Shown: positions 1 to 14,361 of the stretch, in pieces
How the letters are laid out: every line of letters starts with the position of its first letter
Position numbering within the stretch: position 1 is the stretch's first letter
Source: Thiotrichales bacterium HSG1
GTDB lineage: Bacteria; Pseudomonadota; Gammaproteobacteria; Beggiatoales; Beggiatoaceae
Direction: 5' to 3'
NCBI GenBank assembly: GCA_030378125.1
Contig: JAUCGN010000024.1
Location: forward strand, 1-14,361
Length of the DNA stretch: 14,361 nt
Position numbers and translations under genes: made by a program
The notes under the pieces: model-generated
Databases searched by the model: none
What the model saw: the letters and a program-made list of their open reading frames with translations, nothing else
Told to the model about the DNA's origin: nothing

Positions 1-2118
1 GAACGTTGGGTAGCTATTAATCAACGCATTTCATTGTTGCTAAAAAACGGCTTGGGTGGCCTGAAATTAGTAGTAGCCGTTTTGTTTTTATTTCTGGAGG
101 GTCGAGTTGCTTTTTGGGTCGCAGCTGGCATTCCAATTTCACTTATGGGCATGCTGGCTGTGTTGTATTCAATTGGCGGCAGCATCAATATGGTCAGTTT
201 ATTTGCTATGATCATGGCTTTAGGAGTGATAGTTGACGATGCCATCGTGGTGGGAGAAGATGGTTTTACCCACTTTCAAACTGGAGAAAGGTCTTTACTA
301 GCAGCAGAAGGTGGAGCGCAACGCATGTTAGCACCGGTCACAGCTGCATCTTTAACCACAATTTCAGCCTTCTTACCCCTTATGATGATTGGTGGCACAA
401 TGGGAAATATTCTAGTTGATATTCCAATCGTTATGATCTGCGTACTCATCGCTTCTTTGATCGAATGTTTTTTAATTTTACCCGGTCACTTACGACAAAG
501 TTTTCACAAGCTAAAACATGAACAACCAACTAAAATAAGACAAAAATTAGAATATGGTTTTGACGTTTTGCGAGATAAATACTTTCGTCCTTTTATCAAG
601 TTGATTATTAATTTTCGTTGGAGTTTAATAGCAACCATGCTGTCTGCCATGTTATTAGCTATTGGTTTACTGGTTGGTGGTCGTATGGGGTTTACCTTCT
701 TCCCCTCTCCGGAAGGGAGCATTATCATGGCTAATGCTAATTTTGTGTCTGGTACTTCTCCTCAAAGAGTTGATAAGTTCTTAGTTCAATTAGAAAATAC
801 TTTGAATGCAACTGTTACGGAATTTGGAGAAGATATTCTTAATGTTGTCTTAGTAAAACACAGTGGTGGTAGTTCATCTAAAGGCAATGCTCGTTGGGGA
901 GAACAGTTTGGTTCATTAATGATAGAACTAACTATGTCAGATAAACGCACTGTGCGTAATAAACAACTAATTAAGGCTTGGCAGGCTAAAATAAATAAGC
1001 CGGTTGGTTTGGAAAGTTTGACTATAACTGAAAGACGTGGTGGACCACCCGGTCGAGACATTGAAATTCGTCTCAATGGTGTAGATGCAGACAAAGTGAA
1101 AGCAGCATCTATGGAATTAAAAAACCACTTGAAAACTTTTTCCGGCGTAACTGGAATTGAAGACGATATGCCATATGGTAGAGAACAATGGATATATTCT
1201 TTGACTGACTATGGTATGGCTCTAGGTTTAACAGTTGAATCAGTTGGTAAACAGTTGCGGTCTGCATTTGACGGTCATTTAGTACAAATTTTTCAAGATG
1301 GGCGAGATGAAATTGAGGTACGAGTAATGTTGCCGGATCGAGAACGCTATAGTTTATCCAGTTTAGAGAACTTTATGTTGCAACTTCCCAATGGTAATGC
1401 AATTCCATTTTCCACTGCGGTTAAGATAACAACCCAACGTGGATTTGAAGCTATCCGACATGCTCACGGCTTATTAGCGGCTCAGGTTTCTGCTGATGTT
1501 GATAAAAATGTTAATAATAACAATAAGATTTTAGCTAATTTAGAGAAAAACTTATTGCCTAATTTGGTAGCACATTATGGTATAAGTTACAGTTTAGAAG
1601 GTCGGGCGGCTGAACAGGCTGAAACTTTGGGAGATATGAAGCGTGGTTTGATATTGGCTTTAGGATTAATGTATATTATTTTGGCTTGGCAGTTTGCCTC
1701 TTATGGTTGGCCATTAATAGTTATGGCAGTGATTCCATTTGGTTTAGTTGGAGCAATTTTCGGACATTGGGTTATGGGTTTGGATTTAACAATATTATCA
1801 TTATTTGGTTTTTTTGGTCTGTCTGGTATTGTAGTGAATGATTCCATTGTATTAGTTACGTTTTATAAAGATTTACGCAAAAGTGGTATGCCAATAAGAG
1901 AGGCTTTAATTGAGGCTTCTTGTCAACGTTTACGGGCAGTACTATTAACTTCATTGACAACTATATTTGGTCTGATATTGTTGCTATTTGAAACTTCTAC
2001 TCAAGCTCAATTTTTAATTCCGATGGCAACCTCAATTGCTTTTGGTTTAATGTTTTCAACTGTATTAGTATTATTAGCATTACCAGCGTTGCTGTCAATT
2101 TATGAGGAATTTTTGTAA
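1..2118 (+). CDS. RND-family efflux permease (AcrB/HAE1-like), 5' partial
   Basis: This is an inner-membrane, proton-driven RND pump subunit that would work with a periplasmic adaptor and an outer-membrane channel. The reading frame is open from base 1 and the start lies upstream. About 705 residues are present against roughly 1030 in the family, so about 330 N-terminal residues are missing. The visible part starts just before the first multi-helix bundle. The proton-relay motif GVIVDDAIVV has its two Asp codons at 235-240. A periplasmic porter/docking region follows (about 690-1620, including RRGGPPGRDIEIRL), then the second helix bundle with GIVVNDSIVLV (about 1826-1858). The C-terminus is short and ends in a hydrophobic helix. 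The HAD gene follows after a gap of 9 to 27 bases on the same strand and is probably co-transcribed. The substrate cannot be told. The family call is secure; assignment to a drug pump rather than another HAE1 role is inference. Confidence 0.93.
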   Translation, partial: ERWVAINQRISLLLKNGLGGLKLVVAVLFLFLEGRVAFWVAAGIPISLMGMLAVLYSIGGSINMVSLFAMIMALGVIVDDAIVVGEDGFTHFQTGERSLLAAEGGAQRMLAPVTAASLTTISAFLPLMMIGGTMGNILVDIPIVMICVLIASLIECFLILPGHLRQSFHKLKHEQPTKIRQKLEYGFDVLRDKYFRPFIKLIINFRWSLIATMLSAMLLAIGLLVGGRMGFTFFPSPEGSIIMANANFVSGTSPQRVDKFLVQLENTLNATVTEFGEDILNVVLVKHSGGSSSKGNARWGEQFGSLMIELTMSDKRTVRNKQLIKAWQAKINKPVGLESLTITERRGGPPGRDIEIRLNGVDADKVKAASMELKNHLKTFSGVTGIEDDMPYGREQWIYSLTDYGMALGLTVESVGKQLRSAFDGHLVQIFQDGRDEIEVRVMLPDRERYSLSSLENFMLQLPNGNAIPFSTAVKITTQRGFEAIRHAHGLLAAQVSADVDKNVNNNNKILANLEKNLLPNLVAHYGISYSLEGRAAEQAETLGDMKRGLILALGLMYIILAWQFASYGWPLIVMAVIPFGLVGAIFGHWVMGLDLTILSLFGFFGLSGIVVNDSIVLVTFYKDLRKSGMPIREALIEASCQRLRAVLLTSLTTIFGLILLLFETSTQAQFLIPMATSIAFGLMFSTVLVLLALPALLSIYEEFL

Positions 2119-2145
2119 TTTTTAACATTGAGAAAATTTAGTAAT

Positions 2146-2910
2146 ATGAAAGAACTAAGAGCTTTATTATTTGATGTAGATGGTACATTAGCCGAAACGG
2201 AAAGAGATGCCCATCGAGTTGCATTTAATGCCACATTTGCAGAGTATAAATTAGATTGGAATTGGTCTGTAGAATTATATGGAGAGCTTTTAGCTGTAAC
2301 TGGTGGTAAAGAACGGATGCAATTTTATTTGGATAAATATCGTCCAGATTATCAACAACCAGATGATTTACAAGATTTTATAATTGAATTACATAAAAAT
2401 AAAACCAAACATTATAACAATATGTTAACTGAGAATCCTCTGATTTTGCGACCGGGGGTAAGACGTTTGTTAGAAGAAGCTCGCGTTAGGGGAATTAGGT
2501 TGGGAATTGCCACTACAACTACCCCAGAAAATGTGATAAGTTTACTGGAACATAGTTTAGCTCCTGATGCAGTATCTTGGTTTGAGGTAATCGCTGCTGG
2601 TAGCATGGTTGCAGCTAAAAAACCAGCCCCAGATATTTACAATTATGCTATGCAACAAATGAATTTACAAGCTAATCAATGCATTGCAATTGAAGATTCA
2701 CACAATGGCATTCTATCGTCACAAGCTGCCGGCATAACTACCTTGATTACAGTTAGCAATTATACTCGTAACGAAGATTTTAGTGGTGCTATGGTGGTAC
2801 TGGACAATTTAGGTGAACCAAATCAGCCTTTTACAGTATTAGATGGTGATGTTGGTGATTCAACCTATGTTGATATAGATTTTTTAACGTCTAGTAACAG
2901 TATAGGGTAA
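2146..2910 (+). CDS. cbbY: HAD-superfamily phosphatase, CbbY type
   Basis: This is a cytosolic HAD hydrolase of 254 residues, close to the usual CbbY length. All four HAD motifs are visible: FDVDGT (nucleophile Asp10, acid/base Asp12), the Thr run ATTTT at 122-126, Lys158/159 in AAKKP, and the acidic pair in IEDSHNG (Glu183, Asp184). The helical cap lies between motifs I and II and includes TGGKERM. CbbY proteins are known to dephosphorylate the Rubisco inhibitor xylulose-1,5-bisphosphate, which would fit a Calvin-cycle autotroph. That role is inferred, because no cbb genes are in the window and related HADs act on other sugar phosphates. A TTG at 2128 is in frame and would add six residues. 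ATG 2146 is preferred because the conserved core begins right after it, although its ribosome site is weak (GAG at 2130-2132). Confidence 0.85.
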   Translation: MKELRALLFDVDGTLAETERDAHRVAFNATFAEYKLDWNWSVELYGELLAVTGGKERMQFYLDKYRPDYQQPDDLQDFIIELHKNKTKHYNNMLTENPLILRPGVRRLLEEARVRGIRLGIATTTTPENVISLLEHSLAPDAVSWFEVIAAGSMVAAKKPAPDIYNYAMQQMNLQANQCIAIEDSHNGILSSQAAGITTLITVSNYTRNEDFSGAMVVLDNLGEPNQPFTVLDGDVGDSTYVDIDFLTSSNSIG

Positions 2911-2935
2911 TTTCTATTGAAGGAACTTGGTAATC

Positions 2936-2976
2936 GGGTATAAACGGTGGATAATGGTGAATTTTCACTTATACCC
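2936..2976. terminator. Inverted repeat between convergent genes, possible bidirectional terminator
   Basis: GGGTATAA at 2936-2943 is exactly complementary to TTATACCC at 2969-2976, with 25 bases between the arms. Inside the loop GTGAA/TTCAC forms a smaller nested hairpin. It sits in the 75-base gap between the stops of the HAD gene (+) and yebC (-), where a shared terminator is expected. No clean T-run follows either side, so the terminator function is only a guess. Confidence 0.35.
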
Positions 2977-2985
2977 ACCCTTAAC

Positions 2986-3735
2986 CTAACTCAACTGACT
3001 CATTATCTCATCGCTAATATCAGCATTAGAATAAACCTGCTGCACATCATCTATGTCTTCCAACATATCTATTAAACGCAACATTTTCTGAGCACCATCT
3101 AAATCCAAAGCAGAACTGGTTGAAGTTTTCCAAGTAATTTCTGCTTGAGTTGGGGTTAACTTGGCTTTTTCCAGTGCCTTTTTGACTGCATAAAAATCAT
3201 CATCAGGAGAAGTAACTACATCAAAAGAACCATCATTATTTTGTATTACGTCTTGAGCCCCAGCATCCAAAGCCACTTCCATTAGTTGTTCTTCATCAGT
3301 GTCAGTGGAAAAGCTAAATAAACCAACTTTTTCAAAAAGATAAGATACTGAACCATCAGTACCTAGATTGCCACCACATTTACTAAAAGCATGACGCACT
3401 TCGGAAACAGTACGTTTACGATTGTCAGTCATACAATCAACTATTACTGCAATTCCACCAAAAGCATAGCCTTCATAACGAATTTCTTCATAGTTATCAG
3501 CATCCTGATTGCCAGAGCCACGTTTAACTGCTCTAGCTATAGTATCTTTCGTCATGTTACCAGCTAAAGCCTTATCAATGGCAGTTCGCAGACGAGGATT
3601 AGAATCAGCATCGCCACCACCCAAACGAGCAGCAACAGTTATTTCTCGAATCAATTTGGTAAATAATTTACCACGTTTAGCATCCTGTGCACCTTTACGA
3701 TGTTGGATATTTGCCCATTTACTATGTCCAGCCAT
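2986..3735 (-). CDS. yebC: YebC/PmpR (TACO1) family protein
   Basis: This 249-residue protein is full length for the family. It opens with the signature [20 protein letters not shown] and continues with [25 protein letters not shown], a YEGYAFGG segment and the [19 protein letters not shown] block. Its C-terminal half is acidic, as usual. YebC proteins were first described as DNA-binding regulators (PmpR). Related proteins, including mitochondrial TACO1, assist translation, and bacterial members have been linked to relief of ribosome stalling. The start is well supported: a Shine-Dalgarno AAGGGA (plus-strand 3741-3746 read in reverse) lies 5 bases before the ATG and abuts the stop codon of the upstream lipoprotein gene, so the two genes are probably translated from one message. 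In many gammaproteobacteria yebC precedes ruvC; here it is the last gene before a convergent HAD gene. Confidence 0.95.
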
Positions 3736-3744
3736 ATTTATCCC

Positions 3745-4494
3745 TTATTGGCAGCCAAATTTTATGCCTACCTGTTTAGTTATTAATTTATCTCCATCAA
3801 ACAAAACTTGTTCCCCATCTGACGATATATCACTACTCGTAGTCACCGGCTCAAAACATTGTGGTGGTGAAATTGGCAATGGTAATGCCACTGGGGTAAC
3901 TTTCCAAGCCTTATCATTATTATAATTCACTAATATGATATAACCATCTGAATGCCATTTAATCCGCATTGGTTCATCAATATTCATCGTTTGAGTGTCA
4001 AATACATTCAAATTATTTGCATACAAAAACTCTATTGTAACCATCCCACATTCTGGACTATAAACATGTGCCAATTGTGAACCATTAGGTGATGGAATAA
4101 CAGTATGACGTACTTGAGCAGTTTCTTTTTTAGTGCAAGGTTGATTTTTATTATCTGGAGTTTCAATAATTAAAATTTCATTACCACTTTCAGCTATTTT
4201 ATCAAATCTTCTAGCTCCATTTTTCAAAATAGATTCAACTATGAAATACCCAGCTTGTTTCATATAAAAAATTTTTCCACTTTTATAATCACGCCATTCA
4301 GTAATATCACGTTGTTCCCCAGTTTTTATATTTTGTACTGAAATTTTATGTAAATCTTTCTTTGGATGGGAAGTTATAATAGCAGTTTCAGAATTATCAT
4401 CTGCCCAAACCACATTTTTACCTTGGGAAGGCTTGCTAATGTTACCAACACAACCTGCTAAAAGTATTATGAGTAAATATTGTATTATCTTCAT
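3745..4494 (-). CDS. Predicted outer-membrane lipoprotein of unknown function
   Basis: I do not recognise a named family. The protein begins MKIIQYLLIILLAGC, a short hydrophobic signal with a type II lipobox (LLAGC) that makes Cys15 the lipidated residue. Residue +2 is Val rather than Asp, so by the Lol rule the lipoprotein would go to the outer membrane. The mature part of about 235 residues is beta-rich. It carries repeated short strands and phrases such as SPNGSQLAHVYSPE and SSDGEQVLFDG, which resemble blades of TolB/WD-like propellers. That resemblance is weak and only suggestive. Mature cysteines are few (CTKKE, PECGM, PPQCF and a C-terminal GCQ). An in-frame ATG at 4509 would add MHGNN ahead of the signal; the later ATG at 4494 fits the signal peptide better. 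The gene ends 9 bases before yebC on the same strand, so they are probably co-transcribed. Confidence 0.75.
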   Translation of the reverse strand: MKIIQYLLIILLAGCVGNISKPSQGKNVVWADDNSETAIITSHPKKDLHKISVQNIKTGEQRDITEWRDYKSGKIFYMKQAGYFIVESILKNGARRFDKIAESGNEILIIETPDNKNQPCTKKETAQVRHTVIPSPNGSQLAHVYSPECGMVTIEFLYANNLNVFDTQTMNIDEPMRIKWHSDGYIILVNYNNDKAWKVTPVALPLPISPPQCFEPVTTSSDISSDGEQVLFDGDKLITKQVGIKFGCQ

Positions 4495-4559
4495 ATTATT
4501 ACCATGCATAAACTGTAAAATCCAAGATATTTTAGATAATAATATGTTAAAATTTCTAA

Positions 4560-5486
<927 letters not shown>

Positions 5487-5499
5487 ACTGGTAGTTATT

Positions 5500-5569
5500 G
5501 GGGTAACCACAAGGGATTACCCTTACAAACAATCATCTTATCGTAGGGGTAAACCTCTATGGTTGCCAC
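5500..5569. repeat. Two facing copies of a 27-base dispersed repeat
   Basis: The copy at 5543-5569 begins GTAGGGGTAAACC and ends GGTTGCCAC. The copy at 5500-5526 is the same element on the other strand, beginning GTAAGGGTAATCC when read in reverse. Aligned by eye they agree at 20 of 27 positions and are 16 bases apart, so the pair can fold into one long hairpin just after argB. Each copy is also weakly self-complementary (GGGTAA/TTACCC). The style matches the GTAGGGGCAACC-type short repeats scattered through large sulfur bacteria and cyanobacteria; that match is from memory. It may stop or stabilise the argB transcript, but no T-run is present. Confidence 0.6.
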
Positions 5570-5583
5570 TCTGTTTAGGCTAA

Positions 5584-5606
5584 TGGGTAGAATAAACAAC
5601 TGCCCA
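5584..5606. repeat. Short hairpin in the argB-relA gap
   Basis: TGGGTAG at 5584-5590 pairs with CTGCCCA at 5600-5606 (7 pairs, one U-G wobble) around a 9-base loop. It could be a worn copy of another short palindromic repeat or part of the relA leader. Nothing else structured was seen between here and the relA start apart from AT-rich sequence. Confidence 0.3.
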
Positions 5607-5650
5607 CTATATATGAATTTTGTTTAACGTAAGTAAGATTGTTCTCTTGA

Positions 5651-5678
5651 TTGCGAACAAATTTAACTAATTGATAAT
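5651..5678 (+). promoter_or_regulatory. Possible sigma-70-like promoter for relA
   Basis: TTGCGA (5651-5656) and GATAAT (5673-5678) are 16 bases apart, about 30 bases ahead of the relA ATG. The -10 box is good and the -35 box partial. In sequence this AT-rich such matches arise easily, so this is a weak call. Confidence 0.28.
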
Positions 5679-5709
5679 TTTTTTGAATTTAATTAATAAT
5701 TAACGACTA

Positions 5710-7872
5710 ATGGTAAGTACCACAAATTCCATAAATACAACTAGTCCTAATTTTGATTTAGGAAATTGGCTAGAAAATATTATTCAAAATCGTTCTGAAG
5801 CCGAAAAACAAGCACTTATTGATGCCTGTAATTGGGCAGAAGAAATCCATCAAACTCGCACTTATGCTGATAAACCCTATTTAATTCATGTTATTACAGT
5901 TGCTAATATATTGGCACAACTGGGCATGGATACAGATGTTTTAATTGCAGCTATTTTACATGATGTGATTGATAACGTAGACCTGTATGAGATAGAAAAA
6001 CGCTTTGGTTCAACAGTAATGAAATTGGTTGATGGAGTCGCCAAAATGAAGTTTATTGAAGAGCTAAATTCACAAATTGATACTCATAAACAGACTGAAC
6101 GCTTGCGGAAAATGCTGTTAGCAATGGCAGAAGACATAAGGGTTGTGTTGATAAAGTTAGCAGATCGATTGGATAATATGCGAACTTTACGTAATCAATC
6201 TAAGGAAAAACAACAACGTGCAGCCCATGAAACTTTAGAATTATTTGCTCCATTGGCAAATCGGTTAGGAATTTGGCAAATAAAATGGGAATTAGAAGAT
6301 TTATCATTGCGTTATTTGGAACCGGAAACTTATCAACGGATGGCAAAACTTTTAGATGAACGCCGTTTGGATCGGGAAAGTTATATTCAGCAAATAATGA
6401 CAAGTTTGAGTGATGAGTTGCTGAAAATTAATATCAAAGCAGATGTTTCCGGTCGTCCCAAACATATATATAGCATTTGGCATAAAATGCAACGTAAAGG
6501 AGTTGAATTTGAAGAGATTTTTGATGTAAGAGCAGTGCGTATTTTGGTCAAAACTGTAACTGAATGTTATATGGCTTTAGGCGTGATTCACAACAAATGG
6601 CAGCCAATGCGTAATGAATTTGATGACTATATTGCCAATCCTAAAAATAATAATTATCAATCTTTACACACCGCAGTTATTGGCCCAGAACAAAAAATAT
6701 TTGAAGTCCACATAAGAACTTTTGAGATGCATCACCATGCTGAACTTGGGGTGGCTTCACATTGGCGATACCAAGAAGACTTTAATAAGCAAGATGCTAA
6801 TTTTGAACAGAAAATAGCTTGGTTACGGCGTATGTTGCAATGGAAAGATGAAGATGCTGGTGATTTTATTGATCGGTTTAAATCGGAAATCTTTGAAGAT
6901 AGAGTGTATGTGTTATCGCCACAGGGTGAAGTAATGGATTTGCCGCAAGGTGTGACCCCATTGGATTTTGCTTATTATATCCATACTGAACTTGGACATT
7001 GTTGTCGGGGAGCAAAGATTAACAATCGCATCGTACCATTAACCTATATCTTAAAAAGCGGTGATCTAGTTGAAATTTTATCTTCCAATATAGAAAAACC
7101 AAGTCGTGATTGGTTGTTACCACAAGCTGGTTATTTAGCAACTTCTAAAGCCCGTTCCAGAGTTAGGCAATGGTTTAAAAAGCAAGATAATCATCAACAT
7201 ATAAATGAAGGCCGCAGTTTATTAGAACGAGTTTTACGCCGTTTAAATATAAGAGTTTGTAATTACGAACAATTATCTAAAGATTTGAACTTTAAATCTA
7301 TAGATAAATTATTGATTGCAATAGGTAAAGGTGAAGTTACTACTATTCAAATTGCCAATACTTTTCAAGAACAAGTTTTATCAGCTAAAAAACCAGTTAA
7401 AGCAATTACCGAAAATAAATCAGCAACTGAAATTCATGTTGATGGTGTGGGTGGTTTACTAACCAAGTTGGCAGGTTGTTGTAATCCTAAACCTCACGAT
7501 AGAATCATTGGTTATATTAGTCAAGAACGTGGAGTAGTTATACATCTTCGTGATTGTCCAAATGCTTTACGTTGGCAAGATGAGGGTAATAAGAGACTAA
7601 TTGAAGTGGATTGGTCGCAACCAAATAATCTGAAACCGTCTTATCCAATAAATATTCAGGTTAATAGTTTTGATCGTCCTGGTCTGCTATTTGATGTTTG
7701 TAATGTAATTACTAGAGAACATATCAATATTACTGCCACCGATAGTAAATCTCATAATAACCATGTTGACATGAATTTTACTTTGGAAATTAATGATTTA
7801 GAACAGTTATCTCGTACCTTATCAAAAATAGATAATTTAACTAACGTAATGAAGGTATGGCGCAAAAGTTAA
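5710..7872 (+). CDS. relA: RelA-type (p)ppGpp synthetase with a metal-binding HD domain
   Basis: This 720-residue long RSH protein makes (p)ppGpp from ATP and GDP/GTP on stalled ribosomes. Domains in order: HD (about 40-195), synthetase (about 240-355), TGS (about 397-462), zinc-finger-like region (GCC at 589-591, His612, Cys616) and a C-terminal ACT domain (about 645-718). The synthetase carries GRPKHIYSIWHKM, FDVRAVRI and NEFDDYIANPK. The EFDD acidic motif (303-306) is the one of monofunctional RelA rather than the RxKD of bifunctional SpoT/Rel. Unlike E. coli RelA, the HD domain still has its metal ligands: His60, His84-Asp85 and Asp152 in KLADRLDNMRTL. However, the catalytic Glu-Asp pair after HD reads Asp-Asn (HDVIDN), so hydrolase activity is doubtful. 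The ATG has no clear Shine-Dalgarno, but the next Met is inside the HD domain. The cyclase gene follows 67 bases later on the same strand. Confidence 0.93.
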   Translation: MVSTTNSINTTSPNFDLGNWLENIIQNRSEAEKQALIDACNWAEEIHQTRTYADKPYLIHVITVANILAQLGMDTDVLIAAILHDVIDNVDLYEIEKRFGSTVMKLVDGVAKMKFIEELNSQIDTHKQTERLRKMLLAMAEDIRVVLIKLADRLDNMRTLRNQSKEKQQRAAHETLELFAPLANRLGIWQIKWELEDLSLRYLEPETYQRMAKLLDERRLDRESYIQQIMTSLSDELLKINIKADVSGRPKHIYSIWHKMQRKGVEFEEIFDVRAVRILVKTVTECYMALGVIHNKWQPMRNEFDDYIANPKNNNYQSLHTAVIGPEQKIFEVHIRTFEMHHHAELGVASHWRYQEDFNKQDANFEQKIAWLRRMLQWKDEDAGDFIDRFKSEIFEDRVYVLSPQGEVMDLPQGVTPLDFAYYIHTELGHCCRGAKINNRIVPLTYILKSGDLVEILSSNIEKPSRDWLLPQAGYLATSKARSRVRQWFKKQDNHQHINEGRSLLERVLRRLNIRVCNYEQLSKDLNFKSIDKLLIAIGKGEVTTIQIANTFQEQVLSAKKPVKAITENKSATEIHVDGVGGLLTKLAGCCNPKPHDRIIGYISQERGVVIHLRDCPNALRWQDEGNKRLIEVDWSQPNNLKPSYPINIQVNSFDRPGLLFDVCNVITREHINITATDSKSHNNHVDMNFTLEINDLEQLSRTLSKIDNLTNVMKVWRKS

Positions 7873-7878
7873 AAGGAT

Positions 7879-7914
7879 TTGCCTTGAAATGTAATCAATC
7901 TAAAATTTTGGATT
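7879..7914 (+). promoter_or_regulatory. Relic promoter or operator-like site between relA and the cyclase gene
   Basis: TTGCCT (7879-7884) and TAAAAT (7901-7906) are 16 bases apart. The -10-like box lies inside an 18-base near-perfect palindrome, 7897-7914, whose arms AATCTAAAA and TTTTGGATT differ by one pair. A palindrome over a -10 box is a common operator layout, but the AT-richness makes chance likely. If real, the cyclase would have its own promoter as well as read-through from relA. Confidence 0.25.
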
Positions 7915-7939
7915 CTAAGAAGTAACAAAAGGTAATTTA

Positions 7940-10051
7940 GTGAATAAACACAGTATTCGTACCCGACTTTTAGTAACGATGTTAAGTCTAATTATAGTTT
8001 TGTTAACTATATTAACTTATGTGCAAATTAGTTCTCAACAATCTATTTTGGAAAGAGAATTAAAACATCATGAATTATCCTTAAAAAAGAAAATGCTGCA
8101 ATTGGGAGAAGTGCTTTCTGATAATTTGGCTAATCAAGTTGCGATTGAAATTACTGCGTTTAATTTTTCTAAAGTAACTGAATTAGTTAATCTTGCAGTT
8201 CAAAAAGATTCTTATTTGGAATATGGTATTCTGATGAACAGCGAACGTACTGCTCATTTACATACTCAAAAGCCAGAATTAGAATATGAAACTTTATCTG
8301 CTCCTGAAGATATTTTTGCGGCACAACAACAAAATAACTCTAGACAAAGCTTGCAGCAAGATAATGTAGAAATTATTGAATTTATATTACCTATTTCAAT
8401 AAGTAAGAATGTTTGGTTTTTACGTTTAGGTTTTTCTATGGCCACAGTTGCAACAGAAATTTCTATATCCAGACAAGAAAAAAATGAACAAATTCATATG
8501 ATGATAGTTCGTTCTATAATTACCACTATGTTGTTTTTATCATTAAGTACAATTTTAATCGTAATGATTGCAGCCAAAATTTCTAAACCTTTAGTCGAAT
8601 TAACCAATGTTGCTAAAGAACTAACTAATGGAAACTTTGCAGTTAAAATTCCAGTTTGTTACAAGTGTGGGAATAATAGCAAAGACGAAATCGCAGTTTT
8701 AGCTACAACTTTCACTAATATGGCAAAGAATTTAGAAACTTCCTACCAAAAATTAGAAAAATACAATAAATCTTACGAACGTTTTGTGCCACATGAATTT
8801 CTTAATTTTCTTAATAAGGAAAGCATCGTTGACATAAACTTAGGAGATCAAGTTGAAAAAGAAATGACAATTTTATTTTCTGATATTCGTGACTTTACAT
8901 CCATATCGGAAAAACTAACTCCAGAAGATAACTTTGATTTTATTAACACTTATCTTGGTTACATGGAACCAGTTATTCTTCAATATCAAGGTATTATTGA
9001 TAAATATATCGGTGATGCCATTATGGTTTTGTTTCCCACTAATGCCGATGATGCACTCAAGGGAGCAATTGCAATGTTAAAAGTATTGGCAAAATATAAC
9101 AATACCTTACGATATACTGAATTTGGTAAAATAAATATTGGCATTGGGTTACATACCGGAAAATTAATGTTGGGTATAATTGGTGGACAAAGTCGTATGG
9201 ATGGTACGGTTATTTCTGATGCGGTCAATTCGGCATCTCGAGTTGAAAGTTTAACTAAATTTTATGGAATATCACTACTGATAACCGAATACACTTTCAA
9301 AAAATTAACTGACCCTTCTCAGTATTCCATACGAGTGACGGATATTACTAAAGTTAAAGGAAAAACTTCAAAAATAATGGTTTATGAGGTATTTGATACA
9401 GATAGTCCTGAAAATATTGCCTTGAAGAATGAAACTTTAAAAGATTTTGAATCCGGGTTTGCGTTATATCATGATGATAAGATCGCTGATGCGAAACCAC
9501 TTTTTGAGTCAGTTCTACAAGTTAATCCTAACGATACAGTAGCACAAGTTTATTTAGAACGTTGCCAAAAAATTTTAAGCACAACAATGCCGGAACAACC
9601 GCTTATTCTCATTGTTGATGATATGCCAACCAATATACAAATATTGCTTAAAGTTCTCAGCAAACACAACTTTAAAATATTTATCGCTAAAGATGGAGAA
9701 ACGGCTCTTAAAATGGCATCAATTAAGAATCCTCATTTAATTTTGTTGGATATAATGATGCCGGGAATGAATGGATTTGAAGTTTGTAAGCAACTCAAAA
9801 AAAATTTAAACACTAAAAATATTCCGGTAATTTTTACAACTGCTCTATCAGAACAAAAGGATAAGGTTAAAGGATTTAAACTGGGAGCAGTAGACTATAT
9901 AACCAAACCTTTTGAAGAAAAAGAAGTTTTATCACGCATAAAGATCCATTTAAAACTTTATTTTTTGCAACAACAAATTCAAATGAAAAATGTAGAATTA
10001 AAAATTCAAAATGAGCAACTTAAAGGGACAATTAATGCTACTGGAATATAG
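7940..10051 (+). CDS. Membrane-bound class III adenylate cyclase with C-terminal receiver domain
   Basis: This 703-residue signalling protein probably makes cAMP. Order: transmembrane helix (about 9-30), periplasmic sensor (31-186), second helix (about 187-212), HAMP (213-268), class III cyclase (about 307-485), a short TPR-like stretch (about 500-545), receiver (about 554-672) and a terminal coil. The cyclase shows both metal Asp residues (Asp315 in FSDIRDFT, Asp359 in DKYIGDAIM), the transition-state pair Asn430/Arg434 in DAVNSASRVE, and Lys355. Thr423 stands where class IIIa enzymes have Asp; this Lys/Thr pair is typical of class IIIb, whose studied members respond to bicarbonate. The receiver has Asp560-Asp561, phospho-acceptor Asp604, Thr634 and Lys656, so a partner histidine kinase is expected elsewhere. 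The start is GTG with AAAAGG 7 bases upstream. A CYKCG pair (240-244) lies in HAMP. The tail stops soon after the receiver's coil, which may be a truncation. Confidence 0.9.
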   Translation: MNKHSIRTRLLVTMLSLIIVLLTILTYVQISSQQSILERELKHHELSLKKKMLQLGEVLSDNLANQVAIEITAFNFSKVTELVNLAVQKDSYLEYGILMNSERTAHLHTQKPELEYETLSAPEDIFAAQQQNNSRQSLQQDNVEIIEFILPISISKNVWFLRLGFSMATVATEISISRQEKNEQIHMMIVRSIITTMLFLSLSTILIVMIAAKISKPLVELTNVAKELTNGNFAVKIPVCYKCGNNSKDEIAVLATTFTNMAKNLETSYQKLEKYNKSYERFVPHEFLNFLNKESIVDINLGDQVEKEMTILFSDIRDFTSISEKLTPEDNFDFINTYLGYMEPVILQYQGIIDKYIGDAIMVLFPTNADDALKGAIAMLKVLAKYNNTLRYTEFGKINIGIGLHTGKLMLGIIGGQSRMDGTVISDAVNSASRVESLTKFYGISLLITEYTFKKLTDPSQYSIRVTDITKVKGKTSKIMVYEVFDTDSPENIALKNETLKDFESGFALYHDDKIADAKPLFESVLQVNPNDTVAQVYLERCQKILSTTMPEQPLILIVDDMPTNIQILLKVLSKHNFKIFIAKDGETALKMASIKNPHLILLDIMMPGMNGFEVCKQLKKNLNTKNIPVIFTTALSEQKDKVKGFKLGAVDYITKPFEEKEVLSRIKIHLKLYFLQQQIQMKNVELKIQNEQLKGTINATGI

Positions 10052-10067
10052 GCTAGGAATGTTAAAT

Positions 10068-10105
10068 GATTGTCTGAATTAGGATTTTAAGGATTAAAGA
10101 ATTAT
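10068..10105. repeat. Worn copy of a GATTGTCTGAATTAGGAT-type dispersed repeat
   Basis: The stretch starts GATTGTCTGAATTAGGAT and continues into AAGGATTAAAG. Its AGGATTTTAAGGATTAAAG core shares words with the large repeat block at 10731-11250 (AGGATTTTAA, GGATTAAAG). I recall this style of repeat from large sulfur bacteria, cyanobacteria and Bacteroidetes. It lies between the cyclase stop and the transposase remnant. Confidence 0.45.
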
Positions 10106-10123
10106 AGCAAAGCTAGTACTCCA

Positions 10124-10602
10124 TCAACCTTGTATTGATGGATAAAGTGATTTAAGTTTTATTCGAGCATCTTCAGTGGAAAAACGCCAGTTAACACAAA
10201 CAGTATCTTGGTTCCGTTTCCCATAGCTTTATTTCTGATCGCAAAATTTCTTGCTCTGGGATTCGTCGATTCAGACATTGGCGACTTAAAACGCCGATTT
10301 CTATTTCTGCCATATTAAGCCAACTGCCATGTTTTGGAGTATGATGAATTTCCAAACGTTCTGCAATTCGTCTAGCTTGGTTCAAATGTGCTATACAGTG
10401 AACCAAGCTTATGTGTATTAAGATTATCCATAACCAATATAATTTTTTTATCTGGATAATGTTCGTCAACCAAATCCTTCATCAAATGTGCCCAATCAAT
10501 TTTGGTGTGTCTGTCTGTGACCTCAACATGTCGCCATCCTTCCAGTGGTGCAGACAGCATAAATAGATTGCTCACACCATTGCGTTCGTATTCATAATCA
10601 TA
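10124..10602 (-). pseudogene. IS630-family transposase remnant (truncated, frameshifted)
   Basis: Three frames join into one IS630-type DDE transposase C-terminal half. Frame one (10602 to about 10375) reads YDYEYERNGVSNLFM, PLEGWRHVEVTDRHTK and VMDNLNTH, holding the second catalytic Asp. Frame two (about 10380 to 10200) reads ARRIAERLEIHHTPKHGSWL and NMAEIEIGVLSRQC, holding the catalytic Glu. Frame three (about 10200 to 10124) reads VNWRFSTEDARIKLKSLYPS and ends at TGA (complement of 10124-10126). The first break, at about 10375, follows FEPS and gives TAG; the second is near 10200. Everything N-terminal of YDYEYE, including the helix-turn-helix and first catalytic Asp, is absent, and a stop closes the frame just upstream (at 10642-10644). 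No terminal inverted repeats could be found. It cannot be active and marks the left edge of the accessory tract. Confidence 0.88.
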
Positions 10603-10688
10603 TTTTTCAACTCCTTTTTTCTTTAAAACATAGTAAATTAATTAACAGCAACTTTGCTTATCATTATGAACAGAAAAATGTAGAGAAT

Positions 10689-10723
10689 GTAGGATGGATA
10701 GGAGCAAAGCGTAAATCCACCAT
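10689..10723. repeat. GTAGGATGGAT...ATCCACCAT short palindromic repeat
   Basis: The arms GGATGGAT (about 10692) and ATCCACCAT (10715-10723) enclose a GCAAAGCGTAA centre. It matches in form the GTAGGGTGGATTAGCGCAGCGTAATCCACC family of intergenic repeats seen in many proteobacteria and cyanobacteria (recognised from memory). It is imperfect and lies alone between the transposase remnant and the large repeat block. The stretch 10621-10688 holds nothing I recognise. Confidence 0.5.
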
Positions 10724-10730
10724 ATATTTT

Positions 10731-10811
10731 TTGAACAAGATTACATAGATTAAAGGATAAAACATGATTAAAAACCTTATTCCAGATTTAATCCTGCCTA
10801 TCTTTTAATCC
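10731..10811. repeat. Left inverted arm of the repeat block
   Basis: This arm of about 81 bases begins TTGAACAAGATTACATAG and ends CTTTTAATCC. Read in reverse complement it aligns along its whole length with 11169-11250. The longest exact shared run covers a GGTTTTTAATCATGTTTTATCCTTTAATC-like segment of more than 25 bases, and differences are a few substitutions and one single-base gap. It overlaps the first bases of tandem unit 1. Confidence 0.8.
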
Positions 10812-11223
10812 GTTAAATCCTGTTCAATCACCTAACTGGCGAACTTCCATGAAAAAGATTAAAAACGTTTGAACAAGATTTAACGGATTTAAGGATAGAC
10901 AGGATTTTAAACCAATATGTTTTTGATTTAATCATGTTTTATCTTTTAATCCGTTAAATCCTGTTCAATCAGCTAACTGGCGAACTTCCATGAAAAAGAT
11001 TAAAAACGTTTGAACAAGATTTAACGGATTTAAGGATAGACAGGATTTTAAACCAATATGTTTTTGATTTAATCATGTTTTATCTTTGTAATCCGTTAAA
11101 TCCTGTTCAATCACCTAACCGGCGAACTTCCATGAAAAAGATTAAAAACGTTTGAACAAGATTATACAGGATTAAAAGATATTCAGGATTAAATCTGGAA
11201 CAAAGGTTTTTAATCATGTTTTA
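10801..11223. repeat. Three tandem 141-base units
   Basis: The units start at 10801, 10942 and 11083, an exact 141-base period, and the next start (11224) begins a partial fourth copy inside the right arm. Units 1 and 2 differ at a single base (C versus G, near unit base 31). Unit 3 matches for about its first 80 bases and then switches to the sequence of the outer arms. Each unit carries its own inverted arms (TTAATCCGTTAAATCCTG and the reverse-strand match of AGATTTAACGGATTTAA) around a fixed CTAACTGGCGAACTTCCATG centre. The near identity of units 1 and 2 implies a recent duplication. It is too long-period to be CRISPR and codes for nothing convincing. Confidence 0.9.
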
Positions 11224-11250
11224 TCCTTTAATCCTGCATAATCTTGTTCA
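11169..11250. repeat. Right inverted arm of the repeat block, overlapping the CHAT gene end
   Basis: This is the partner of the left arm at 10731-10811, in opposite orientation, so the whole 520-base block is bounded by long inverted repeats like a MITE-style element or a palindrome-forming repeat. The arm runs past the stop codon of the CHAT-STAND-TPR gene (11228-11230) and covers its last seven codons or so. Confidence 0.8.
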
Positions 11251-14200
11251 CAATCCCATCAACCTTCTCCTGCAATTCCCCAATATTAACTCCCCATTCT
11301 GCCAGCCACCGTTTTAAACTACTAAGTTCTGGAAGTTGTAATAGTTCGTTAAGTTTTGGTAGTGGGTAAATTGTGTCTTTTTCCTTAGCTTGTTGCATAT
11401 GAATAGCAAGGTTGCCTAAACATTCACCGCCAAGTAGTCTTTGTTGATTACCTGTCACAATATAATAAGCAATTTGAGCAAGCCGATGCCCAACCCCCTC
11501 CTCAACTTCCCCAACTCCATGCAAATAATTAGACAAATTACCATGAGAAATAGCTCTATCTTGAGGATTTGGCAACCGTTCACAAATAGCCAATGCTTGC
11601 CGTTCTTGTTCTATAGCATGTGACATATCGCCACGTTCTTTCCAAACATTAGCGAGGGCGGAAAGTACTTTGGCCTGATTTGTTAAATCATTTTTATTAG
11701 TAAAGACCTGCAAACAACTTTCCAATACTTGCTGTGCTTCATCCAAGCGTTCCAATTCTATCAAAGGTTTATAACGATTAAACCGAGTTCTAGCTAAAGC
11801 CTCTTCACTTTCACCAGCAGCTTGCTCAACTTGTCCTGTTTCAGTCAGCAAATCAAGACAGTCTTGCCAATGTTTTAATTGTAAGTGAGCGTAAATAGCA
11901 ATATTCAACCCACTAATAAAGGCACTAGTTAAAATATCGGTATCAGGTGCAGCAGCTAATTCTTCTCCTTGTTGACTCCGTTTCCACCAATCTCTAATTT
12001 TAGCCAGATGTTGTTCAATAGTTGGTAAAGCAGTTTCTACTTTTCCCAACATAATATCTATCCGCAGAGCTTCTAACTCATTACCAATTATATCAACTTC
12101 TGTTTTACCAGCTTTGCGTTCAGCTTGAGCAGAACGTTGAAAGGTCTCACGAGCCTCTGGCAATTGTCCCACATCACGAAGTGCAATGGCCCAATTCTGG
12201 CAAATCCAAGCTACATCCACCCAATTTTCCGCAGCTTCAGCCTCACTTGCAGACAATTTATACAAAGGCAAAGCCAGTTGTGGTTGAGCTGATTTGTTTA
12301 ACGCATCAGCCAAATAGGTACGCATCTTCCAACGCATTTTTCCAGCCGGCACTTGTTCAACAACAGTTTCTAATTCCGCAATAATAGCCTGTAATTGTTG
12401 GGGATTGTTGGTACTAGTCACCACAGAACTAGCAAAACTACCCAAAGCCTCAAATGCCTCCGCTCGTACTAGATAAGTTATCGCTCGCCGCCCCATTTCA
12501 GTTGCAGTTGTCTTATCCGAACCACGCACAGCCTTAAAAATACCAGCATACTGTTCCCCATAAGCTTGGCCAGTCTGCTTGGCATCTCGTTCCCCACAAT
12601 CTTCCGAATGCTCCTCCATCCAAACAGTACAACGTTCCCGCACTAACTCATGGAAACTATATACCGCCTTTTCAAATTTACCTTCTTGTTGCAACAAACC
12701 TGAATTGGTGAGTTCTTTTAATAATGGGCCGATAGCTGGTGAATCGGGAGTATTTTTAATTTTTTCTAATCTTTCTAATAAATTATTTATTTGTACAAGT
12801 AATTCTGGTGATTCACTTTGTGCTTTAGCCAACACCTGTTCCAATGCTTCTGGATTTTCAGTATATGGCAATAGCATTTCCATTTCTGATGACATAGCTT
12901 TACCAGACCAAACTTTATCCAACACAAAATACGGAACATCTTCCAAAGCCCGTGTCACCACCCACAACAACTGCCGAGCCTCCACACTCAACCGCTGCAC
13001 CAACAAATCCACCGCCCCAATCGCCACATCCTCCAAATACTTCTGCTCCTCCGCATCATCCTCCAACCGAGAAAAATGCTTAAAACCCTGCTCCTCCAAA
13101 CTAGCCAACGCCGTAACCAAACCATCCCTATCAACTGCCAAATCCCCCAAACGCTGCATAATCAACGGATGACCATGACTAATATCTAAAACTTTATTAA
13201 CTAAATTTCTATCAGTCAAATCCCCATGCCACAACCGATTCAACGCCTTATGACTCTGCAAAAACAACCGAGCCTCATTATCTGGCAACGGTCCCAACAG
13301 AAGAAGACCTTCCAGGTTTCCAAAACCTGGAAGGTCTGGGTTTAAAATCCGATGCCGACAAGTAATCAACACCCGTGAAGAACCCTGTAACTGTTGGCAA
13401 AATGCCGTCAACAAAGCCGTCCACTCTGGGTCTTTACAAGAATTATCCTCCAACAAATTAGTCTCAAAATTATCAATCACCAACAGGATAGGATAATCAT
13501 TCAATACCGCTAATAAATTCTCCCGCATCGTCTCATAACGAGCTGATTCCTGCTGAGGCAAATAAATCTTGCGATACTCATCATCCTGACACAATTCTCG
13601 ATAAGCCTTACTCAACCGCACCAACAACAAATCAATCTGCTGATAAAAAGCCTCGGCATTCAACGTTTGACCACGAGACTGCACCACCAACACCAAATCA
13701 AACTGATTATGCCATAAATTAATTGCTTCAGCCGCCAACGCAGTTTTCCCTAAACCAGCCAAACCTTGCACCAACACCACCGATGACTTATCCGCAGCCA
13801 ACCAATTCCGCTTTAATTTAGTCAACTCCTGACTCCGCCCCACAAAATGCGATCGAGCCTTAAACCCATATTTAGCATCACTCAACAAAGGCTGAAATCG
13901 TTGCTCTGGATACCGCTTTTGTTCCGAATTCCGCTTATTAGCCGCTTGCAACAACCATCGATCCTGCCCAAACAACAACGGTGTAACATGTTCAATCGCT
14001 GCAATAGTCGTATCCTTCGCCAACTCACTCCGAGCCATCGCCAAAGCCGCATCCGCCACATGCTGTTCCGCCAATAAATACTGATAAAACAACACCGCCA
14101 ATTGCCGAGCATACTCATCTCCCACCGAATATCGCATCGCCACTACCTGCGGAACTCCCGCCAACAACAATGCCAACGCCGTGCTAGTATAACCATCAAG

Positions 14201-14361
14201 ACCTACTTCAAGACCTACTAGGTTTCCAAAACCTAGTAGGTCTGGTTTTGAATCTAGTTTTGATTCTGATTTAAAAAAATCTCCCGAATGACAAGCAGAT
14301 AAAAACACTAATTGCGGTACAAAACCACCAGCCTGCTGAAACAATTGCACCAAACTAGCCC
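11228..14361 (-). CDS. CHAT protease-like / NB-ARC (STAND) ATPase / TPR protein, 5' partial
   Basis: The frame is open to the window edge and the start lies outside; residues here are counted from the TTG at 14353. First comes the C-terminal part of a CHAT caspase-like domain, with the catalytic Cys21 in LVFLSACHSG and the usual tail (LALLLAGVPQVVAMRYSVGD, then AALAMAR). The catalytic His should be just upstream. Next is FVGRSQEL (170-177) and an NB-ARC/STAND NTPase with Walker A GLAGLGKTA (Lys203), Walker B LLVIDNFE (Asp294), VLITCRHR and GHPL (394-397). A winged-helix-like region (about 440-600) is followed by TPR-type helical repeats (about 650-1000). STAND proteins use NTP-driven oligomerisation to switch on effectors, and CHAT domains are predicted or proven proteases in some defence systems. 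A sensor (TPR) to protease switch is the natural reading, but it is inference. Two palindromic elements are inserted in frame, and the last codons come from a repeat. Confidence 0.92.
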   Translation of the reverse strand, partial: ASLVQLFQQAGGFVPQLVFLSACHSGDFFKSESKLDSKPDLLGFGNLVGLEVGLDGYTSTALALLLAGVPQVVAMRYSVGDEYARQLAVLFYQYLLAEQHVADAALAMARSELAKDTTIAAIEHVTPLLFGQDRWLLQAANKRNSEQKRYPEQRFQPLLSDAKYGFKARSHFVGRSQELTKLKRNWLAADKSSVVLVQGLAGLGKTALAAEAINLWHNQFDLVLVVQSRGQTLNAEAFYQQIDLLLVRLSKAYRELCQDDEYRKIYLPQQESARYETMRENLLAVLNDYPILLVIDNFETNLLEDNSCKDPEWTALLTAFCQQLQGSSRVLITCRHRILNPDLPGFGNLEGLLLLGPLPDNEARLFLQSHKALNRLWHGDLTDRNLVNKVLDISHGHPLIMQRLGDLAVDRDGLVTALASLEEQGFKHFSRLEDDAEEQKYLEDVAIGAVDLLVQRLSVEARQLLWVVTRALEDVPYFVLDKVWSGKAMSSEMEMLLPYTENPEALEQVLAKAQSESPELLVQINNLLERLEKIKNTPDSPAIGPLLKELTNSGLLQQEGKFEKAVYSFHELVRERCTVWMEEHSEDCGERDAKQTGQAYGEQYAGIFKAVRGSDKTTATEMGRRAITYLVRAEAFEALGSFASSVVTSTNNPQQLQAIIAELETVVEQVPAGKMRWKMRTYLADALNKSAQPQLALPLYKLSASEAEAAENWVDVAWICQNWAIALRDVGQLPEARETFQRSAQAERKAGKTEVDIIGNELEALRIDIMLGKVETALPTIEQHLAKIRDWWKRSQQGEELAAAPDTDILTSAFISGLNIAIYAHLQLKHWQDCLDLLTETGQVEQAAGESEEALARTRFNRYKPLIELERLDEAQQVLESCLQVFTNKNDLTNQAKVLSALANVWKERGDMSHAIEQERQALAICERLPNPQDRAISHGNLSNYLHGVGEVEEGVGHRLAQIAYYIVTGNQQRLLGGECLGNLAIHMQQAKEKDTIYPLPKLNELLQLPELSSLKRWLAEWGVNIGELQEKVDGIVNKIMQD
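13305..13337. repeat. 33-base palindromic element inside the NB-ARC domain
   Basis: AGACCTTCCAGGTTT (13305-13319) and AAACCTGGAAGGTCT (13323-13337) are perfect 15-base complements around a CCA loop. Translated on the minus strand it yields residues 339-350, PDLPGFGNLEGL, between VLITCRHRI and LGPLPDNEARLF, two segments that should be close together in an NB-ARC fold. Similarity to the second copy extends about a dozen bases past the right arm (CTGG, then TTTAAAATC here). Confidence 0.95.
14196..14219. repeat. Perfect 12-base tandem duplication beside the second palindrome
   Basis: TCAAGACCTACT occurs at 14196-14207 and again at 14208-14219. The second copy runs into the left arm of the palindrome. 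In the protein it appears as VGLE-VGLD. It may be slippage at the palindrome edge or a trace of the insertion event. Confidence 0.9.
14211..14243. repeat. 33-base palindromic element inside the CHAT domain
   Basis: AGACCTACTAGGTTT (14211-14225) and AAACCTAGTAGGTCT (14229-14243) are perfect 15-base complements around the same CCA loop. It encodes residues 37-48, PDLLGFGNLVGL, in the same frame phase as the other copy. It lies between the catalytic LSACHSG and the YTSTALALLLAG strand. The only differences from the first element within the 33 bases are the central triplet of each arm. Confidence 0.95.

Follow-up and report, generated by a model that had tools for sequence, protein, structure and literature searches.

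The 14,361-bp stretch analysed here, referred to as the window, is contig JAUCGN010000024.1 (positions 1 to 14,361) of Thiotrichales bacterium HSG1 (GCA_030378125.1). It carries two 33-bp palindromes, both inside one gene for a CHAT-STAND protein. Taken as a whole, these palindromes are best explained, with good confidence, as repetitive extragenic palindromic sequences (REPs) of a lineage of REP-associated tyrosine transposases (RAYTs; TnpAREP, HUH/Y1 single-strand transposases) that extends over several phyla. Sequence comparison establishes a dispersed family of such palindromes, the pairing of their arms, their linkage to RAYT genes, triplets that the copies around one RAYT have in common in many cases, and a statistical association of the triplet with two RAYT residues.

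Two palindromes and a dispersed family

Both elements follow the 33-bp layout AGACCT-NNN-AGGTTT-LLL-AAACCT-NNN-AGGTCT, with CCA as the loop LLL, and both are perfect palindromes. The first (13305-13337) carries the variable triplet TCC at 13311-13313 and its complement GGA at 13329-13331; in the second (14211-14243), ACT at 14217-14219 is matched by AGT at 14235-14237. A first-pass annotation, made from the sequence alone, had described 15-pair stems here with compensated changes in the arms, and this observation is confirmed: folding of the DNA predicts 15-pair hairpins of -15.8 and -14.1 kcal/mol (z -7.4 and -8.1), the pattern, its triplets left free, has two exact matches in the window and none in 200 dinucleotide shuffles, even when 3 mismatches are allowed, and TCC/GGA and ACT/AGT change as pairs. 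The host gene (11228-14359, minus strand) is truncated at the contig end, and a Pfam scan of its product gives CHAT, AAA/NB-ARC-like and TPR matches. Both elements lie in the same codon phase of this open reading frame (ORF), where they are translated as PDLPGFGNLEGL and PDLLGFGNLVGL, as the annotation had said of their insertion into a single CHAT-STAND gene. The first element lies between strands of the AAA-like domain (CHAT site 2) and the second in a loop past the LSACHSG motif (CHAT site 1), where a partial arm copy, AGACCTACT, adjoins it at 14199-14207; the CHAT orthologue of HSG11 has one more repeat of this kind. Since the triplets of the two copies are unlike, plain local duplication within the CHAT gene was rejected. 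Two weak Rfam matches over 12800-14361, both under gathering score and one of them flavi_FSE (E 0.06) on the second element, were judged to be chance.

A search with this pattern, proposed in the first-pass annotation, found further copies whose arm triplets covary. In the source genome (2.22 Mb, 63% complete), 21 copies are present when as many as 3 mismatches are allowed, against 0 in the control. Among 39 other genomes surveyed, 20 of the 24 from the same family hold between 1 and 369 copies, and none of the 15 from elsewhere in the class holds any. An exact scan of named genomes gave at least 118 stretches with copies; titles among those listed include Bacteroidota, Chloroflexota, Desulfobacterales, Geobacteraceae, Methylococcales, Calditrichaceae, Gracilimonas and one Oscillatoriales bin, with exact copies present in Bacteroidota, Chloroflexota and Desulfobacterota. 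Copies were confirmed in all 49 named genomes picked for holding them, at 1 to 132 each with up to 1 mismatch. Among the copies listed, the triplet is nearly fixed in several genomes (GTC in G082, CGT in G062, TGA in G077, ATA in G103) and mixed in G018, G087 and G340.

All 15 positions are paired in 142 of 195 unique copies. Conservation of the fixed letters follows by construction, because these letters formed the search key, but pairing of the free triplet does not: its three positions are Watson-Crick in 171, 180 and 177 of the 195, with 63 two-triplet combinations. Under a lenient ORF rule, 27 of the 195 unique copies and 4 of the 21 in the source genome fall within a long ORF. The earlier reading as a repeated palindrome, in frame and with covarying arms, is upheld, but few copies are genic.

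No shared flank is visible around the 21 source-genome copies. Several of them (L142 at 2876, L146 at 2658, L147 at 3059, L150 at 3019 and L152 at 3084) lie between inverted stretches like TTTTCAGATAAA ... CTGAAAAACTAT, and from their sequence look as if enclosed in a larger element resembling a miniature inverted-repeat transposable element. In IMG/VR contigs there are 68 exact copies in 51 stretches (L309-L359), most often with the triplets CCG, GCC, GCG and GAC, and no RAYT match in those 51 stretches; viral contigs are possible carriers between hosts. Dedicated RAYT searches gave 1 locus from viral contigs and 2 plasmid records, numbers too small for a test.

RAYT genes beside the palindromes

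Clustering of ORFs over 118 loci revealed a Y1/HUH transposase in 6 Bacteroidota loci, with the palindrome nearby outside the gene in 5 and in frame inside it in 4. The largest cluster, response regulators (12 of the 118 loci), represents a very common family. A PDB sequence search with the transposase has TnpAREP (4er8) as its sole match, and a Foldseek search with its model gives 4er8 as the best match (E 7e-8), along with 2vjv, 2xo6 and others. HuH and Y motifs are present on a Y1 fold, and the alignment of the six RAYTs (A1) contains an invariant NHFH; the NCBIfam model REP_Tyr_transpos gave a hit, below its cut-off, for 6 of 6 RAYTs tried. Of 55 genomes with the palindrome, 50 contain a match to the A1 profile at E 0.001. 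RAYTs came from Beggiatoa-type genomes, Geobacteraceae, Chloroflexota and Bacteroidota, and since they are found across phyla the RAYT and its palindrome have probably been transferred between phyla as a pair.

The palindromes cluster around these genes in genomes other than the window's own. An AGACCT copy lies inside the gene or within 300 bp at 29 of 70 RAYT loci (inside at 10), compared with 3 of 30 comparison Y1_Tnp loci of relatives that have a copy anywhere in about 3 kb. Among 296 Bacteroidota genomes, AGACCT copies (up to 1 mismatch) occur in 18 of 61 with a RAYT at E 1e-40 or better and in 8 of 235 without, a comparison uncorrected for relatedness and genome size; two of the 18 (G073, G100) were originally reached via palindromes, and one RAYT-negative genome has 17 copies. 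Copies around a single RAYT often have the same triplet: GAC in three at L231 and five at L233, GCC in three at L225, ACT in three near L234, and CCA in three at L241. Arms that do not match occur at L270-L272.

Copies also lie within the RAYT genes. With the symmetry filter on, 29 of 153 RAYT loci contain 32 such copies, of which 30 lie between HuH and Y; phase 2 is the commonest (23), ahead of phase 1 (7) and phase 0 (2). At L090 (1272-2741) and L139 (5712-7184) the RAYT frame continues via an in-frame palindrome into a second protein, which we take to be coproporphyrinogen oxidase.

Where a RAYT has no AGACCT copies, its flanks often carry other palindromes built in the same way, from a hexamer, a triplet, a near-complementary hexamer and a short loop, and then back; examples are AAACCC.GAA.GGGTCT, AGATGC.GGC.GCACCT and AGAGTG.GTT.CACTCT. 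Counting every hexamer frame, 33-bp palindromes occur at 47 of the 70 RAYT loci, and at least five of six arm pairs (G-T allowed) form in 108 of these 122 palindromes, as against 155 of 2440 with shuffled arms. In held-out palindromes, collected without the symmetry filter, arm symmetry was found in 59 of 66, from 38 of 83 loci. The long hairpin is computed to be by far the more stable form of the free single strand, and for this reason the mini-hairpins may be relevant solely in the presence of the enzyme. One RAYT, L275 in G004, has two flanking tandem arrays with 14 copies in total of an AAACCT.TGA.AGGTTT palindrome, spaced about 61 bp apart. On the linkage described here, the window palindromes are very probably REPs of this RAYT lineage.

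The variable triplet and a RAYT dipeptide

Two syntenic RAYTs, L231 of G068 (Thioploca) and L234 of G004 (HSG11), share an upstream flank and differ past the start methionine by 11 residues and an 8-residue gap. Every flanking triplet differs between them, GAC at L231 and ACT at L234. The copy inside the L231 gene is complete and reads GAC, and the remnant in L234 is still GAC. Among the residue differences is RP versus KN following LFQ. The hypothesis that this dipeptide is linked to the triplet was fixed before new genomes were searched.

In the first set, 20 of 70 RAYT loci scored below 130 and were left unaligned; 37 of the 50 aligned have a triplet. A pair-based column scan of 35 RAYTs in this set placed the two dipeptide columns at the top; a cruder analysis by mutual information, with 19 RAYTs, had failed to pick them out (ranks 9 and 16). 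In a scan of all 68 labelled RAYTs the top ratio belongs to a near-invariant G (zero denominator) and the next to the first dipeptide residue. The held-out set comprised 83 new RAYT loci, 31 of which have a clear triplet, defined as more than 50% of readings from palindromes of 33-34 bp with 13 of 15 pairs and arm symmetry of 5 of 6.

Among held-out pairs below 50% identity, the triplet is common to 16 of 17 with the same dipeptide and to 31 of 413 with different ones (0 of 5000 shuffles as high); below 40% identity the figures are 8 of 8 and 24 of 304 (4 of 5000 as high). Of the held-out RAYTs, 21 had a dipeptide already known, and for 17 of these the first-set label table included the triplet, compared with a mean of 3.3 and a maximum of 9 in shuffles. 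The four failures were DY, SP, QK and one of two GR. The shorter wording of the prior hypothesis would also miss two EH rows (AAC), and it does not cover DR, SP or QK. Among held-out RAYTs excluded from scoring, L383 and L384 (PN/CCA), L388 (KN/TCC) and L391 (RK/TCG) would fit, and L412 (KP/GAC), L364 (KN/GCA), L377 and L381 (PN/CTT), L372 and L423 are misfits or unclear; all 7 KH rows are among those excluded.

Over the 68 labelled RAYTs, the triplet is common to 41 of 96 same-dipeptide pairs and to 55 of 2043 different ones. RP occurs with GAC (7) and GTC (5), KN with TCC (5), ACT (1) and CCC (1), PN with CCA (5) and TGG (1), EH with AAC (3) and GCC (1), DR with CAC (2), and ER with three different triplets; G[AT]C is also found beside RA, RG (twice) and SP. 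When the motif columns are left out of the tree, 10 changes of RP and 12 of G[AT]C are counted on it. Six independent pairs on well-supported branches could be formed for RP, of which on average 5.7 change in the same direction and none in the opposite one (p 0.03). For KN (3.0 of 5), PN (1.6 of 3) and KP (2.0 of 3) none is opposite, and the pairs are too few. In the PN clade, L231/L234 and L387 switch triplet and dipeptide together.

When E. coli TnpAREP is aligned by HMMER, its residues P96-R97 coincide with the dipeptide, past W94-Q95 and ahead of E100, H101 and R104, the residues named in connection with reading of GTAG (PMC6006769); RAYT-REP contacts have been placed around beta 4 and elsewhere (PMC8266576). 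In the inner hairpin, AGGTTT-LLL-AAACCT, it is the triplet that takes the 5' foot. As this is the guide place in canonical REPs, the triplet is interpreted here as a guide that has diversified, and the 33-mer as a symmetric REP of the double-foot type. The balance of these comparisons favours reading of the triplet by the dipeptide. Somewhat less firmly, they suggest a general two-residue code, in which the dipeptide at TnpAREP positions 96-97 would name a three-base address at the REP hairpin foot in any hexamer frame. The window triplets, TCC and ACT, both occur beside KN-type RAYTs in relatives (L235 and L234, respectively).

The 33-mer consists of two inverted 15-nt half-sites, each a hexamer, a triplet and a near-complementary hexamer, on either side of a 3-nt loop. 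Under the proposed mechanism, the RAYT would bind the single-stranded hairpin, and its dipeptide would read the triplet where the GTAG guide is read in other RAYTs. It would then cut, and move or copy the element via single-stranded DNA; binding, cutting and copying are inferred from the enzyme family. The arms would covary because both halves bear the same address in inverted orientation. A change of dipeptide would re-address the enzyme and the RAYT's own flanking copies would follow, while old copies in genes could remain as fossils of a former address, as in L231/L234. A genic copy would survive if it kept the frame, at 11 codons for 33 bp and most commonly in the phase that gives DLxGFxNLxGL, and lay in a tolerant loop.

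Several observations weigh against this account. The window's own genome gives just a weak match to the A1 profile (E 2e-6), at 63% completeness. The GT[AG]G foot of canonical REPs is absent, the ends being AGACCT/AGGTCT and the inner foot the variable triplet. Triplets are mixed at RAYTs L224, L229, L246 and L247, others have none that was found, 52 of the 83 held-out RAYTs lack a clear one, and just those 41 of the 96 same-dipeptide pairs agree. Genome-wide, G004 has 8 exact ACT copies and 18 exact GAC copies in spite of the ACT copies flanking L234, and G018, whose RAYT L235 goes with TCC, has 7 TCC and 15 GAC copies; in G068 there are 17 GAC copies and none with ACT or TCC. Several RAYTs per genome in G004 and G018, together with old copies, could explain this mismatch. 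Finally, no movement of the element has been observed.

Copies within genes, alternatives and known systems

Of 19 element-bearing long ORFs scanned with Pfam, 10 have no match and 9 do: SpoIIE/PAS/GAF, HpcH/HpaI, amidohydrolase, PMT, polysaccharide deacetylase, DUF1156, FGE-sulfatase (twice) and metallophosphatase-NACHT, the last (L005) with a degenerate copy that is possibly chance. In the HpcH/HpaI protein (L126) the element occupies a variable loop, and the motif is present in 4 of the 120 homologues listed, a count that includes the query itself. The same loop holds other insert-like peptides in P0126, P0133 and P0138, for example VIASETKQSPIS, which presumably resemble translations of other REPs. 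Such in-frame copies explain the peptide common to unrelated proteins as a DNA element.

The CHAT homologues show the same variability. The strict motif DLxGFxNLxGL is present in 5 of the best 120 of 492, the window's protein among them. Both sites hold a single copy in P0002 (Halobeggiatoa HSG11); P0004 (Parabeggiatoa HSG14) has one at site 1 and two at site 2, P0006 (Thiomargarita) two at site 1 and none at site 2, and P0007 two near-identical peptides at site 2; the site 1 loop of P0007 holds three tandem copies of another peptide (GFGKSASLHSRNN...). The close homologues P0003 and P0005 have no copy at either site, and P0009, which ends short of site 1, has none at site 2. In the DNA, the site 1 triplets are ACT (window), GCC (HSG11), GCC (HSG14) and GAC twice (Thiomargarita), and those of site 2 are TCC (window), GTC and ACT in one mixed copy (HSG11) and GAC twice (HSG14). 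The two Thiomargarita copies (L191) lie within a 51-bp tandem duplication. At site 1 of G002 just GCAGGTCT is left, which may be a deletion scar. The AlphaFold model of the CHAT protein, made with the inserts, has a mean predicted local distance difference test (pLDDT) score of 74. Site 1 falls within residues 32-57, where pLDDT is below 50 throughout, and site 2 within residues 335-351, which lack secondary structure and fall below 50 at 339-342. In this model both sites look like insertion-tolerant loops, and the element is probably a tolerated passenger in the CHAT gene.

An alternative in which the peptide has a conserved function in the CHAT protein, its palindromic DNA being accidental or otherwise caused, is very improbable. 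The same two sites are filled, sometimes twice, in four listed homologues besides the window's, but 115 of the 120 lack the motif, P0003 and P0005 among them, the sites range from 0 to 2 copies, and the same peptide occurs in unrelated proteins; given the 115, the conserved-domain reading was set aside. The expected absence of the peptide from homologues held for most of the list, but not for some close relatives, in which the two sites carry the element with other triplets and copy numbers. A reading of the palindromes as host binding sites or terminator-like hairpins, with the RAYT as a chance neighbour, is also improbable. It would suit the intergenic majority of copies, their very stable folds and the 8 Bacteroidota genomes with copies and no RAYT at the threshold used, including the one with 17; it does not account for copies within RAYT genes, triplets common around one RAYT, the dipeptide link or the patchy distribution across phyla.

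Two further alternatives concern the mechanism. The link between triplet and dipeptide might reflect co-inheritance along RAYT lineages with no direct recognition, which is the least unlikely of the alternatives, since RAYT and REP travel side by side, and the tree gave p 0.03 for RP alone, with too few independent pairs for any other dipeptide. Against it, the link persists in pairs below 50% and below 40% identity and across hexamer frames, L231/L234 and L387 in the PN clade change both together, and the dipeptide sits among guide-reading residues. Template switching in hairpins, repairing one arm from the other, could also produce complementary arms without both halves being read; the prevalence of perfect palindromes and the arm repeats beside CHAT site 1, which suggest slippage, would fit, but this rather doubtful explanation leaves the dipeptide link and the triplets common to separate copies around one RAYT unexplained.

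Recognition of REPs by RAYTs and the origin of REP families are known for few enzymes: E. coli was called the sole earlier case with experimental REP interaction data when two group 3 enzymes were added (PMC8266576). Dozens of natural enzyme/address pairs and a near-isogenic switched pair are available here. If the code is real, REP families could be assigned to RAYTs from sequence, address switching could be tested by two-residue swaps, and single-strand transposases would have a small, readable protein-DNA code. In-frame REPs, with a GTAG or CGTC tag, and Rickettsia palindromic elements in many proteins have been described (PMC3733652), as have REPs between HuH and Y of RAYT genes (PMC6006769). 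Our searches showed no report of the AGACCT family, a variable address triplet or a dipeptide partner; they did not extend to supplements, where such a REP may appear in Table S1 of PMC6006769, or to preprints and the majority of subscription papers.

The first-pass annotation likened the element to the Rickettsia palindromic elements, and its interpretation as a whole is partly supported. Like these and intragenic REPs, the family consists of in-frame palindromes in many proteins, at times at two sites per gene, but the sequences appear to be other ones: the GTAG/CGTC tag of the REPs is absent here, as is the CGTC tag reported for some Rickettsia elements (PMC3733652). The nearest kind is the REP/RAYT system, as one RAYT lineage is flanked by such palindromes. 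REPtrons, in which REPs flank a RAYT gene and coevolution of the two has been described, share dispersed palindromes, a flanked RAYT gene and the HUH/Y1 fold (PMC2817692, PMC8266576). They differ in that the present family lacks the GT[AG]G head and has a variable triplet at the inner hairpin foot, two nested levels of palindromy, and one AGACCT frame across several phyla.

Among RAYT subclasses, likeness is judged by the motifs described (PMC6006769). Subclass 2.4 (RAYT group 4), known for double-foot REPs, likewise has a symmetric REP, in frame between HuH and Y, in several phyla including Bacteroidetes, and its NH[IFV]H fits NHFH; the foot here is not GT[AG]G, and the Y motif is YIHxNP as opposed to YIxNNP. 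Subclass 2.6 (RAYT group 5) shares atypical flanking structures with copies elsewhere in the genome, an unconserved region of guide-reading residues and a YIH-type Y motif (YIH[QN]NP), but it is dominated by Bacteroidetes, has NH[LIV]H in place of NHFH, and comes with no report of in-gene insertions in the accessible text of that paper. The IS200/IS605 transposases (IS608, ISDra2) share the fold, through the matches to 2vjv and 2xo6, and the logic of a guide sequence; where they form a two-ended insertion sequence, the present system consists of 33-mers on their own and a RAYT gene flanked by copies.

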